NCBI RefSeq assembly: GCF_000227685.2
Contig: NZ_CP007029.1
Span: 462,047 to 526,046, forward strand
DNA from: Thioalkalivibrio paradoxus ARh 1
GTDB taxonomy: Bacteria; Pseudomonadota; Gammaproteobacteria; Ectothiorhodospirales; Ectothiorhodospiraceae
DNA: 64,000 bases
Reading direction: 5' to 3'
Part shown: positions 2,785-53,971 of the stretch, one piece after another
How the letters are laid out: each line of letters starts with the position of its first letter
Numbering within the stretch: the first letter of the stretch is position 1
Position numbers and translations under genes: made by a program
The notes under the pieces: generated by a model
What the model was told of the DNA's origin: nothing
Databases searched by the model: none
Seen by the model: the letters and a program-made list of their open reading frames with translations, nothing else

Positions 2785-2980
2785 GTTAGCGTGAAAGTCA
2801 CGGCCTGTCTCGTGTCCCGGGCGACCCGTAGGGCGGAATAGCGCAGCGTCATCCGCCGCTCGGCGTTCGTGCCTGCTTGGCGCCTGCGGCAACCCCGGCG
2901 CCAGCTGGCGGATGACGGCCTTCGGCCTTTTCCGCCCTACGCCTCTTTCATCATCAGGGGTGGCTGCCCGGGCCATGACA
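2785..2980 (+). repeat. Composite palindromic repeat, copy A
   Basis: A 196-bp unit. It starts GTTAGCGTGAAAGTCACGG. The palindromic core has arms CCGTAGGGCGGAA...CGTCATCCGCC and GGCGGATGACG...TTTTCCGCCCTACG. It continues CTCTTTCATCATC and ends before the next GTTAGCGTG. It is in tandem with copy B. Open frames inside it are a by-product of base composition. Confidence 0.9.
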
Positions 2981-3164
2981 GTTAGCGTGAAAGAACCCGC
3001 GGCGCGCGTCCGGGGTGACCCGTAGGGCGGAATAGCGCAGCGTCATCCGCCGCTCGGCGTTCGCACCTCCCCGGCGCCTGCGGCAACCCCGGCGCCAGCT
3101 GGCGGATGACGGCCTTCGGCCTTTTCCGCTCTACGCCTCTTTCATCATCGGGGGTGGCCACATA
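2981..3164 (+). repeat. Composite palindromic repeat, copy B
   Basis: Second tandem unit, with the alternative left end GTTAGCGTGAAAGAACCCGC. The core is as in copy A. The right tail runs to GGTGGCCACATA and is fused directly to brnT codons, so it has no closing GTTAGCG boundary. Confidence 0.85.
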
Positions 3165-3290
3165 CAGGAGCAAGCACGGCATAAGCTTCGAGGAGGCGGG
3201 AACCGTTTTCTCGCCCTACGCCCCTTTCATCATCGGGGGTGGCCACATACAGGAGCAAGCACGGCATAAGCTTCGAGGAGGCGGGAACCG
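3122..3290 (+). repeat. 84/85-bp tandem duplication of repeat tail plus brnT 5' end
   Basis: 3122-3205 and 3206-3290 are near-identical. Each runs from the right arm of the repeat (TTTTC...CCTACGCC) through CATCATCGGGGGTGG and into brnT codons ([13 protein letters not shown]). The junctions share TTTTC, suggesting slippage or recombination at a short homology. The first copy is a dead brnT start; the second continues into the gene. Confidence 0.85.
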
Positions 3291-3490
3291 TTTTCTCGGA
3301 CTTCCTGTCTATCACCGTTCCAGATCCGTTACATCCTGCGGCTGAGGAACGCTACGTGACCATAGGCAGGTCCGAAAGGCAGCGGCTCTTGGTGGTTGTT
3401 CACGCCGACCGTGGAGACAGTGTTCGGCTGATTTCGGCGCGCGTCGCAACCGCGCGTGAACGAAACGCATACGAGGAAGCCCATGGCTAA
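3239..3490 (+). pseudogene. brnT: BrnT ribonuclease toxin with replaced N-terminus
   Basis: The body matches BrnT (RelE-like RNase): [62 protein letters not shown]. The usual first strand and helix (FEWDxxKAxxNxxKHG) are missing. In their place the frame begins inside the repeat tail, at best from GTG 3239 (residues ATYRS). Roughly a dozen N-terminal residues were lost when the repeat joined here. It could still make a shortened protein, but it is probably inactive. It overlaps brnA by 8 bases. Confidence 0.7.
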
Positions 3491-3692
3491 CAATCACGAT
3501 CCGGAAATGCAGGACGAATATGACTTTTCCCATGGTGTTCGCGGCAAGTACGCGGCACGGTACCGGGAAGGCACAAATCTCGTGAAACTTGACGACGATG
3601 TGGCTTCAATGTTTCCGGATGAGCAGTCCGTGAACGAGGCCCTCCGGGCACTGGTGGACATCATCCATCAGCACGACAAACGCCACGCATGA
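3483..3692 (+). CDS. brnA: BrnA antitoxin
   Basis: A 69-residue BrnA. It has the family hallmark [20 protein letters not shown], then [26 protein letters not shown], a ribbon-helix-helix DNA-binding segment. ATG 3483 overlaps the brnT end, the normal coupling. BrnA neutralises BrnT and represses the operon. The promoter region that would normally precede brnT has been replaced by the repeats at 2785-3164, so present expression is uncertain. Confidence 0.85.
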
Positions 3693-4056
3693 GACCCGTG
3701 GGCAGCTCCCGGGGGTTGGCTTCTTGCCTCGGTTTGGCCGCCAGCCGTTGACAGCCCGTAAGCGTTGCACGTGGCGCCGCTCCTCAATCTGGCCGTAGAG
3801 CACGCTGATTCCGTCACCCCGGCTCTCCACTTCCGCACGTCATCGGGCCGGAACGAAACGGAGGGCCTGACTAACGCGCGCAGCGAGTGATCCACTGAGG
3901 TGGGGGCGGCCATCAGCACGCGTGGGGGCTCCTTCCGTGGAAGGGGGGCTGCGGAAAGGCAGCGCGACCGGCAGCCGGCGTTCCAGCAATGTGGCTGTAA
4001 CAGAGAATCGTACCCGTCGGTGGCTTGCACCGGTACGGTGGGGCGACGCTGCGCAA
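3693..4056. other. Gene-free stretch before the transposase 3' end
   Basis: No convincing coding frame on either strand. A hairpin lies at 4009-4037 (CGTACC pairs with GGTACG, and GGTG with CACC), 20 bases beyond the transposase stop. It could be the transposase terminator or the downstream end of the transposase unit. Confidence 0.5.
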
Positions 4057-51122: not shown

Positions 51123-51146
51123 GACAGGACCCTGGGAGCGCAGCAG

Positions 51147-52583
51147 ATGGAATGGGAAACCGTGATCGGGCTGGAGATCCACGCCCAGCTCAACACCGTC
51201 TCGAAGATCTTCTCCGGCGCCGCGACCGCCTACGGGGCGGAGCCGAACCGGCAGGCCTGCGCGGTCGACCTGGGGCTGCCCGGCGTGCTGCCGGTGCTGA
51301 ATGCCGGGGTGGTCGAGAAGGCGGTGATGCTGGGGCTCGCGATCGATGCGCGCATCGCGCCGCGGTCGGTGTTTGCGCGCAAGAACTACTTCTACCCGGA
51401 CCTGCCGAAGGGCTACCAGATCTCGCAATACGAGCTGCCGATCGTCGCCGAGGGGCATCTGGACATCGATCTGGAGGACGGTGGCCGCAAACGCATCGGG
51501 GTGACCCGCGCGCATCTCGAGGAGGACGCCGGCAAGAGCCTGCACGAGGGCTTCACCGCGATGACCGGCATCGATCTGAACCGCGCCGGAACGCCGCTGC
51601 TCGAGATCGTCTCCGAGCCGGACCTGCGCTCGGCGAAGGAAGCGGTCGCGTATATGAAAAAGCTGCACGCATTGGTGCGCTATCTCGGCATCAGCGACGG
51701 CAACATGCAGGAGGGCAGTTTCCGCTGCGACGCCAACGTGTCGGTGCGCCCGAAGGGGCAGCAGGCGTTCGGCACCCGCACCGAGATCAAGAACCTGAAC
51801 TCGTTCCGTTTCGTCGAGCGCGCGATCAATTTCGAGGTGGAACGCCAGATCGACCTGCTCGAGGCCAGCGGAACGGTGGTGCAGGAGACGCGCCTGTACG
51901 ACCCGGATCGCGACGAGACGCGTTCGATGCGCTCGAAGGAAGAGGCCAACGACTATCGGTACTTCCCGGATCCCGACCTGCTGCCAGTGGTGGTCCACTC
52001 GGAGTTCGTCGACGCGATGCGCGCGCGCCTGCCTGAGCTTCCCGACGCGAAGCGCGACCGCTTCATCGGCGAATACGGCCTGTCGGCCTACGACGCGGGG
52101 TCGTTGACCGCGAGCCGGGAGCTGGCCGATTACTTCGAGGCAGTGGCGGCCGGTTGCGGCTCACCGAAGCTTGCGGCGAACTGGGTGATGGGCGAGTTTA
52201 CCGCTGCGCTGAATCGCTCCGAGGTGGCGGTCGAGAACAGCCCGGTTCCTGCGGAGGCGCTCGCGCAGTTGCTGACCCGGATCCAGGACGACACGATCTC
52301 CGGCAAGATCGCGAAAGAGGTGTTCGAGGCGATGTGGTCCGGCGAGGGCGATGCCGACGCGATCATCGAGGCGCGCGGGCTGAAGCAGATCACCGATACC
52401 GGTGCGATCGACGCGATCATCGACGAGGTGATCGCCGCGAACCCGGCCCAGGTCGAGCAGTTCCGTTCGGGCAAGGACAAGGTCTTCGGGTTCTTCGTCG
52501 GCCAGGTGATGAAGAAGACGCGCGGGAAGGCCAACCCGGCCCAGGTCAACGAGCGCCTGCGCACGCGGTTGCAGGGTGATTGA
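51147..52583 (+). CDS. gatB: Asp/Glu-tRNA amidotransferase subunit B
   Basis: 478 residues. [71 protein letters not shown] and the C-terminal YqeY-like domain ([30 protein letters not shown]) are GatB hallmarks. It activates and amidates Asp- or Glu-tRNA. Completes gatCAB, an indirect Gln/Asn-tRNA pathway. Confidence 0.97.
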
Positions 52584-52804
52584 GCGCCCGTGAACGTGTT
52601 CCTGCGCCCGCTCCCGGTGCCTGGAAACGCCTGTCGCGGCGTCGCGGTCGGCCCGCGTCGCCGGAACGGGCTCGGCCCTGCGCGCGGGTCGTTGTATCCC
52701 GCGCCTTGTCGGGCATGTTCGAGGTTTTCGTCGTCGTCGCCGCAGCGCGCACTCCGGCACGCGCGCTACGCAGGGATGCGGGACAACCGAATCCGGGACG
52801 GCCG

Positions 52805-53701
52805 GTGAGCGACGAGCGGGATACCCTGCACCGTTTCCTGCTGGAGCGCACGGCGGTGCGTGGCGAGTGGGTGCACCTCGACGATGCCTGGAAGGCGCTT
52901 CTGGAGCGCCACGACTACCCGCCGGTGGTGCGCGCCCGCCTCGGGGAGGCGTATGCGGCGGTTGCGTTGATCGCGGCGACGTTGAAGTTCGACGGCGCAC
53001 TGATTCTGCAGATCACCGGTTCCGGGCCGTTGCACCTGCTGGTAGTGCAGGCCACTGGCAGCCGCGCACTGCGCGGGCTCGCGCGCTACCGCGGCGAAGT
53101 TCCCGACGGCGATCTTGCGGAGATCTTCGGGGACGATGCCCGGCTGGTAATCACGCTGGATCCGGGTGCCGGACGCGACCGCTACCAGGGCGTGGTGGAA
53201 CTGGGCGGTGGCTCGCTGTCTGCCGCACTCGACCGGTATTTCGAACGTTCCGAGCAACTGCCCACCCGGGTCTGGCTGGCGGCGGGGACCGAGCGTGCCG
53301 CCGGCCTGTTGTTGCAGGGCATGCCGGCGGCCGATGGTACTCCCACCCGGCCCGACTCCGAGGACTGGATCCGGGCGACGCTGTTGGCCGATACCGTTGC
53401 CGCCGAGGAGTTGCTGCAACTTCCGGCACAGGCGCTGCTGCTGCGCCTGTTCCACGAGGAACGGGTGCGGCTGCTGGAGGGGCACGTGATGCGTTTCGCC
53501 TGCGGTTGTTCGCGGCAGAAGGTCGAGGAGATGCTGCGCGGCCTCGGCGCGGACGAGGTCCGCGCGACTCTTGCGGAGGAGGGCCGGGTCGAGGTGACCT
53601 GTGAGTTCTGCAATGCCCGGTACCGCCTCGACGCGATCGACGCCGAGGCGCTGTTCGCCAGCGCCGATCCGCAGCCCGACGTCGGTTCGACCCGCCACTG
53701 A
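52805..53701 (+). CDS. hslO: Hsp33 redox chaperone
   Basis: 298 residues from GTG 52805. DTLHRFLLERTAVRGEWVHLDDAW, LTGSGPLHLLVVQAT-like segment, and the redox-switch cysteines in FACGCSRQK and VTCEFCNARY (CxC then CxxC, zinc-bound when reduced). Hsp33 is activated by oxidative unfolding. The long upstream frame from 52580 is rejected. 220 bases separate it from gatB. A composite repeat lies downstream. Confidence 0.93.
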   Translation: MSDERDTLHRFLLERTAVRGEWVHLDDAWKALLERHDYPPVVRARLGEAYAAVALIAATLKFDGALILQITGSGPLHLLVVQATGSRALRGLARYRGEVPDGDLAEIFGDDARLVITLDPGAGRDRYQGVVELGGGSLSAALDRYFERSEQLPTRVWLAAGTERAAGLLLQGMPAADGTPTRPDSEDWIRATLLADTVAAEELLQLPAQALLLRLFHEERVRLLEGHVMRFACGCSRQKVEEMLRGLGADEVRATLAEEGRVEVTCEFCNARYRLDAIDAEALFASADPQPDVGSTRH

Positions 53702-53779
53702 TCCCGCGTTGCATCGCTGCACCGCTGGGGCCGCAGCGCGGTACAGTGGGGCCCGGGCGCAGCCCCGTTGCCGGAGGCC

Positions 53780-53971
53780 GTTAGCGTGAAAGTCACGGCC
53801 TGTCTCGTGTTCCGGGCCACCCGTAGGGCGGAAAAGCGCAGCGTCATCCGCCGTACGGCGTTCGCAGTGCCCAGGCGCCCGCGGTAATCCGGGCGCCAGC
53901 TGGCGGATGACGGCCTTCGGCCTTTTCCGCCCTACGCCTCTTTCATCATCGGGGGGCCGCTGGCCATGACA
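53780..53971 (+). repeat. Composite palindromic repeat, copy M
   Basis: 192-bp single unit between hslO and the TauE/SafE gene (convergent). Left end GTTAGCGTGAAAGTCACGG, tail GGGGGGCCGCTGGCCATGACA, closed by GTTAGCA. Confidence 0.9.

Follow-up and report, generated by a model that had tools for sequence, protein, structure and literature searches.

What kind of element makes the framed repeats of about 196 bp that recur, in part head to tail, in a 64,000-bp stretch of the Thioalkalivibrio paradoxus ARh 1 chromosome, and what carries them from site to site? The stretch, called the window below, is G000:C1:462047-526046, G000 being its own genome (one contig, 3,756,729 bp). An earlier note on this DNA had proposed thirteen copies of a composite palindromic unit with fixed boundaries and had left the nature of the frame open. 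The evidence says that the frame represents the two ends of an IS110-family element. With a probability of roughly 0.78, the units are non-autonomous mini copies of an insertion sequence (IS) of this family that is guided by a bridge RNA, and the palindromes are their cargo.

Sequence of the kind described was found at all thirteen places. Eleven of the thirteen starts belonged to framed units around a GTAG-type doublet of repetitive extragenic palindromic (REP) sequences, a REPIN (Table 1). All eleven start with [GC]TTA[GA]CGTG[AG]AAG and hold the imperfect palindrome described, an inverted-facing GTAGGGCGGAA...TCATCCGCC / GGCGGATGA...TTCCGC[CT]CTAC core. Nine end with TTTCATCATC, a G-rich stretch, a hairpin and CATG, followed by another GTTA[GA]C; the units at 2981 and 22900 are truncated on the right. 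Both left-end types, GTCACGG and AACCCGC, are present, and the core has the features of a REPIN, GTAG and an imperfect palindrome in an inverted pair. Two starts differed from the description: at 34686 the frame is present in a 236-bp unit with a GTGGGAGCG-type palindrome instead of the ordinary core, and the copy placed at 37661 has the core but lacks the frame, being flanked on each side by a copy of a different direct repeat.

Genome-wide pattern searches put both ends of the frame far above chance in G000: the left end GTTAGCGTGRAAG (one mismatch) occurred 102 times versus 7 times for a reversed-pattern control, the right end TTTCATNNTCGGGGGTG 123 times versus none. A 196-bp query had at least 62 matches in G000 at E <=2e-42 (40 of the 221 candidates scored) and matches in 12 of the 40 genomes of a relatives set, G000 included, all of one genus; a plasmid collection contained no match, and an Rfam search of the window and of the IS left end found nothing. 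A junction pattern was matched in three of 369 genomes of the class, a sample that does not include the relative G010 introduced below: G000 (39 matches), G270 (3) and G110 (1), the last without frame features around it and counted as chance. The exact right-end pattern retrieved two records from a genome contig search, a Thioalkalivibrio metagenome-assembled genome and an Alcaligenaceae strain. In the latter (strain CAII-56, L089, ~853-873, minus strand) stands a lone right end TTTCATCATCGGGGG with the hairpin TGGCC-GCAAT-GGCCA and then GTTAG; a left end was not seen within the 8 kb examined.

Relatives show the frame around varied contents rather than a palindromic core with random flanks, and the interpretation of the framed unit as a real element is supported. 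In G010 (4,002,350 bp), the nearest relative rich in copies, left-end motifs recur at spacings of ~1,598, 94 and 134 bp. The array units are consecutive there, with lengths of 93/94, 125, 133/134, 136/138, 171, 192-196, 223 and 1,595-1,620 bp; those of ~1,598 bp alternate with 94-, 125-, 134-, 138-, 171- and 196-bp units, mostly in the same orientation, and in L117 an adjoining group is inverted. Nearly all start with GTTAGCGTGAAA and end with TTTCAT..GGGGTG, a hairpin and CATGA before the next GTTA[GA]C. Five contents share this frame: an IS110 gene, the GTAG REPIN, a GTGGGAGCG REPIN, CCACGGAA palindromes and a 94-bp type. Among 51 distinct complete G010 units, 21 contained the IS110, 13 were of the 94-bp type, 10 held the CCACGGAA palindrome, 6 the GTAG REPIN and 1 the GTGGGAGCG REPIN; the 57 distinct complete G000 units, classified by script in the fetched loci, comprised 54 with the GTAG REPIN, 1 with the GTGGGAGCG REPIN and 2 with the CCACGGAA palindrome, all these proportions referring to loci chosen among the best matches and not to whole genomes. 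One of the 54 is 1,460 bp long (L150) and contains one of the other IS110s of G000, not the G010 type. Folded against shuffles, the 134-, 135- and 136-bp units reached z values of -5.40, -5.44 and -3.91, the GTAG core -3.17 (DNA fold) and the GTGGGAGCG core -2.11; the 94-bp unit folded no better than its shuffles (z -1.18). Both frame ends were also present in G016, G008 and G013 of the same genus and in G270 of another family, where mini units with another cargo adjoin the IS copies and one more mini lies elsewhere. Single frame ends stood alone in the examined loci of G017, G019 and G023. Because bare cores occur as well (37661 and several core-only matches), core and frame are separable.

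The ~1,598-bp units of G010 encode within the same frame a recombinase of 405 amino acids (aa), with an intact copy at L122:915-2129. It matched PF01548 (E 2.9e-27), PF02371 (E 1.5e-22) and NF033542, 'IS110 family RNA-guided transposase' (E 2.5e-89), and its relatives of solved structure are IS621 (8wt6, E 6.9e-15) and ISCro4. With its DEDD N-terminal and Transposase_20 C-terminal domains, the element belongs to the IS110 family. Long units had been labelled IS110 by a length above 1,500 bp before alignment to the protein confirmed the gene in all 21 distinct ones. Among 14 copies checked, that of L122 keeps the five protein motifs together in a single frame, the L110 copy has a 412-aa frame whose C-terminus differs by a short repeat, and 12 are frame-shifted with the motifs spread over several frames. 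At 1e-40 the recombinase was found in the 40 relatives solely in G010 and, with 67 % identity, in G031; at 1e-90 the 369 class genomes yielded solely G031, G270 (77 %) and G315 (71 %). Plasmids contributed, at 1e-60, one relative of 72 % identity (Comamonas plasmid) and 26 under 60 %, and in viral contigs no relative was found.

In these homologues, the ends of the element are those of the frame. The right ends (RE) of G270, Comamonas, G315 and G031 read TTTCACGTTAA, TTCCACATTAA, TTCCACACTAAC and TTTTCACGGTAA, respectively, and match the reverse complement of the frame's left end; the end point was fixed by at least two diverging copies in G270 and G031 and by similarity alone in Comamonas and G315. 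The left ends (LE) of G270 and Comamonas, the two homologues with a readable LE, start with T[GC]TCATG, a hairpin and CACCC..GATRATGRAAGA, similar to the frame's right end in reverse complement, with differing hairpin letters. Since the homologues share the frame ends, the frame corresponds to the ends of an IS110 subgroup and not to a Thioalkalivibrio flank that trapped an IS. As terminal inverted repeat, IS and units have only a short subterminal TTTCA/TGAAA match.

The insertion target was read from the outer borders of the arrays. In the 55 leftmost G000 units, the six bases before GTGA were G in 42, T in 51, T in 52, A in 45, G in 42 or A in 11, and C in 52; further left, no strong conservation was seen. 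Rightmost units end in GTTAG and continue into unrelated flank. Thirty-five of 91 right ends in G000 were internal, 26 were rightmost with the motif, and 30 lacked the exact motif, many of these having GTTAG and a base other than C, others being changed or truncated. The left hexamer was GTTAGC in 23 of 42 outermost versus 26 of 28 internal units. From the variable outer and the nearly constant internal hexamer it follows that the target is GTTAR on the left, and that the GTTAG on the right is brought by the element. Tandem growth is explained by this arrangement: a unit lies 3' of GTTAR and itself ends in GTTAG. A CT is present at the unit boundary; a core CT at AA-CT-GTCATG was dropped because the RE-side flanks do not conserve CT.

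The earlier note had also called for empty sites in related strains, and such sites exist in G010. At L106, G010 reads ...GCTAGC-GGTTTTT versus GTTAGC-unit-GTTAGC-GGTTTTT in G000; empty sites hold one hexamer copy. The G010 counterpart of window position 22311 is empty of units (GTGTTAGCCCCAG), with another repeat further upstream. These two are the clean empty alleles, 22311 having been tested apart from a set of 13 G000 sites, of which 4 gave a joined match in G010, 2 were occupied and 7 gave no joined match, one of the 7 with a gapped match in G017. Less clean are L003, where the motif is changed, and L158 and L102, which align with gaps. The unit borders and these alignments show insertion at a specific sequence without a true target-site duplication, as in IS110. 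A further-filled site was found at L096. In G000 it reads TTTAAC-unit-CATGACAGTTAG-CGGCAATCC, in G010 TTTAAC-unit-CATGAAAGTTAG-IS110-CGGCAATCC, the IS110 ending in CATGACAGTTAG. The right flank resumes exactly after GTTAG, and the IS110 lies exactly at the frame boundary. This site is the most direct evidence that the IS ends are the frame boundary and that arrays grow at the GTTAG of the previous copy; a precise loss from G000, the opposite course, would involve these ends as well.

Between its end and the ATG, the G010 IS has 285 non-coding nucleotides, conserved in G270 and Comamonas. One stretch of this LE segment, guide 2, reads CACGCTAA in G010, CACGTTAA in G270 and CACATTAA in Comamonas, in each case the element's own RE; another, guide 1, ends in GCTAAC, GTTAAC and GCTAAC, respectively, the target motif. 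One of the three G270 copies has CACGCTAA as guide 2 instead, and one has GTTGAC at the end of guide 1. Not one of 20,000 first-order Markov sequences contained CACGCTAA twice. A consensus fold of four sequences had 47 pairs, 7 with two-sided changes, and left guide 1 unpaired in 8 of its 9 bases, all but the first. With stretches that spell donor end and target and covary in three lineages, the LE segment appears bridge-RNA-like.

We propose the following course of events. The units would have kept the two ends of the parent, in unit orientation the RE CGTGAAAG and the LE TTTCATCATCGGGGGTG-hairpin-CATGACAGTTAG, and palindromic cargo, mostly a GTAG REPIN, would have replaced the recombinase gene and the RNA. 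Recombinase and expressed RNA of a full-length copy would act in trans and excise the unit, joining RE to LE in a presumably circular intermediate, which would be inserted just 3' of GTTAR (YTAAC in the orientation of the recombinase gene). As each inserted element itself ends in GTTAG, the occupied site would stay a target, and full-length and mini copies would therefore add head to tail.

Parts of this scheme have precedents. A mini-IS of ISEc21 (IS110), whose LE measured 29 bp and whose RE measured 16 bp, moved with recombinase and RNA supplied from outside and inserted without target duplication, according to the available text of PMC11187229; the natural units keep ends of similar size. 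For IS621, a CT core and the targeting of REPs are described in the accessible part of PMC11208160. Like IS621 and ISEc21, whose guides are named bridge RNA and seekRNA, the G010 type has a DEDD and Transposase_20 recombinase, two guide-like stretches in a non-coding region upstream, and no long terminal inverted repeats, and it inserts at short specific sequences that often lie in repeats. Unlike in these, arrays form because the target of the G010 type is similar to the junction of the element's own ends; minis with a replaced inside are abundant, and a subterminal hairpin is common to IS and minis. By their length (~94-240 bp), the lack of a transposase gene and the ends common to an autonomous IS110, the units would qualify as miniature inverted-repeat transposable elements (MITEs). 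As far as the available descriptions of NEMIS, RUP, MITECca01 and MITEPye1 go, these bacterial MITEs are likewise short, non-coding and present in many copies, with a parent IS that shares the ends; unlike them, the units have a parent that encodes an RNA-guided DEDD recombinase and lacks long terminal inverted repeats, form head-to-tail arrays of several types and carry palindromic cargo. Most G000 cores are inverted-facing GTAG REP pairs as in REPINs, bacterial interspersed mosaic elements (BIMEs) and the GTAG repeats of SMAG, but here the REPIN is cargo nested in IS ends, and other cores share the frame. GTAG-15 dimers of A. variabilis and CGTC-1 dimers of H. neapolitanus also lie regularly within a longer conserved frame (PMC3733652), described in the accessible sections of that paper as palindromic sequences only, with no parent IS named. 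A literature search with most subscription journals and preprints outside its scope returned no IS110-derived MITE among the texts it covered in part.

Table 1. Framed units and related repeats of the window (window coordinates)
Position	Strand	Feature	Remarks
2785..2980	+	framed unit, GTAG-REPIN core, complete	GTCACGG left end
2981..3172	+	framed unit, GTAG-REPIN core	AACCCGC left end; right end cut off in terminal hairpin
16278..16476	+	single framed unit	CTTAAC hexamer left, GTTAGC right; collinear G010 site without unit
22311..22510	+	array unit 1	inserted at GTTAGC of GGGCCC-GTTAGC-CCCAGATG target
22511..22704	+	array unit 2	
22705..22899	+	array unit 3	AACCCGC left end
22900..23056	+	array unit 4, without right end	joined to second left-flank copy (junction approximate)
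34490..34685	+	reference unit	34490-34502 RE-like; ~34533-34645 GTAG-REPIN core; ~34650-34685 LE-like, with hairpin
34686..34921	+	same frame, different REPIN	GTGGGAGCG type, 236 bp
37663..37772	+	GTAG-REPIN core, frame absent	a copy of another repeat on each side
46154..46349	+	array unit 1	GTTAAC hexamer left
46350..46545	+	array unit 2	
53780..53971	+	single framed unit	synteny break versus G010

Several window units are associated with further duplications. An 85-bp tandem duplication at 3122-3291 comprises the tail of the truncated 2981 unit and its flank. Both sides of the four-unit array carry a 78-bp flank with a terminator-like hairpin and the GTTAGC target (22239-22316 and 23045-23122); together with the lost right end of the last array unit, this looks like a template-switch duplication. 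The bare core is flanked by the two copies of an 83-bp direct repeat (37589-37671 / 37773-37855, 89 %), a similar duplication geometry without a frame. Other repeats of the window are a dispersed one of ~250 bp (37803-38055; ~20 matches in G010 with 75-82 % identity) and a perfect 10-bp tandem repeat CAGCCCCTGG of 10.6 copies (42442-42547). Elsewhere in G000, a small Y1/RAYT-like gene (RAYT, REP-associated tyrosine transposase; L091, G000:2072000-2075000) is flanked by GTAGGAGGCGAGCC-type REPs, a family other than the unit REPs. Two other IS110s are inserted in REPIN cores of units (L153, G000:560776, and L154, G000:1371310), one of them separating CCGCC-CT from CT-ACGGG, as IS621 does in REPs, and the other located at CGTAGGGCG|GAAG, i.e., IS110s use the cargo of mini-IS110s as target.

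The REPIN core could itself be the mobile part, moved by a RAYT (Y1 HUH) as in SBW25, and the frame a flank co-amplified by unequal recombination. GTAG with inverted-facing imperfect palindromes is indeed the build of published GTAG REP dimers (available text of PMC3733652), tandem REPIN clusters including flanks are described for SBW25 (accessible part of PMC3116915), and the bare cores fit as well. We nevertheless regard this explanation as unlikely: the frame surrounds quite different contents, the IS110 gene included, and is inserted at GTTAR sites, and ~3 kb around each of the three PF01797 loci in G000 contained neither GTAGGGCGGA-type REPs nor the frame. The frame has GTTAR on its 5' side only, no conserved 3' flank and a subterminal hairpin, and its 3' end repeats the target, an anatomy of the IS91, Helitron and IS200-605 families; it might therefore be a single-strand or rolling-circle non-autonomous element with the G010 IS110 gene as captured passenger. 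That these ends recur in related IS110s of other families and of a plasmid, and that RNA-like LE stretches spell the ends and covary with them, makes such a passenger very unlikely; among the 57 and 51 complete units the long ones hold IS110s, no dedicated search for IS91 or Helitron proteins having been made. The HUH/rolling-circle reading was dropped after the homologue ends, the LE stretches and the L096 site.

Least credible is that the repeats belonged to the host beforehand and only serve IS110 recombinases as targets, as REPs serve IS621, the minis not being derived from IS110s. IS110s do target REPs (available text of PMC11208160), and the two IS110s of G000 sit inside unit cores; these two, however, are not bounded by the frame, whereas the frame bounds the G010 type in 21 distinct units, chosen for the presence of both ends, and distant homologues carry the frame ends as own ends. 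An origin as integron attC sites was rejected: in the last 100 bp of 86 units below 1 kb, [CG]CTAAC occurred in none and RYYYAAC in one, versus the RYYYAAC ... GTTRRRY of attC.

Several observations weigh against the derivation from an RNA-guided IS110. No transposition was observed. G000 has no G010-type IS110 (0 matches at 1e-40), and its sole two IS110s over the Pfam cut-off are of other types, inserted inside units. The terminal hairpin of the L096 unit differs between G000 and G010, and the two alleles must therefore be more than one event apart. The consensus fold pairs part of guide 2, the G010 LE RNA is no more stable than shuffles (z 0.13), the guide 1 bases upstream of GYTAAC do not match genomic flanks, leaving a target of 5-6 bases, and in a search for a right-hand target guide none was found, the IS621 geometry not being confirmed. 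In the terminal hairpin, covariation supports just pair 3 (45 of 52 paired; reached by 0 of 2,000 shuffles); pair 5 is weakly supported (11 of 2,000 shuffles), pairs 4, 6 and 7 are without covariation support, and pairs 1-2 were fixed by the search pattern. The hairpin is short in G270, and a readable LE was available in three lineages only. With the parent IS not found in G000, the units there look like orphans of past activity. A 207-bp unit (L028, G000:3397453) has an LE hairpin exactly that of the G010 IS110, hinting at the past presence of this type in G000.

What is known of bridge recombinases concerns single IS elements and engineered tools. We see about an even chance that the arrays represent a natural RNA-guided cassette system, with a target like its own end junction, arrays of swappable minis built and reshuffled, and REPINs captured as cargo, at work in no fewer than two distant lineages, the Thioalkalivibrio group and, from another family, G270. 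Natural minimal donors, the shortest here of ~94 bp, show which ends evolution kept: an RE of ~12 bp and an LE of ~40 bp that includes the hairpin. Compared with G010, the window repeats at 34490 (34490-34686) and 53780 are synteny breakpoints whose left and right flanks map far apart; the sites 16278, 22311, 37661 and 46154 are collinear, so breaks concern two of six sites compared. Self-targeting arrays, if true, would explain a class of intergenic tandem repeats, would let REPINs spread in a second way, other than through RAYTs, and would provide sites for chromosome rearrangement.

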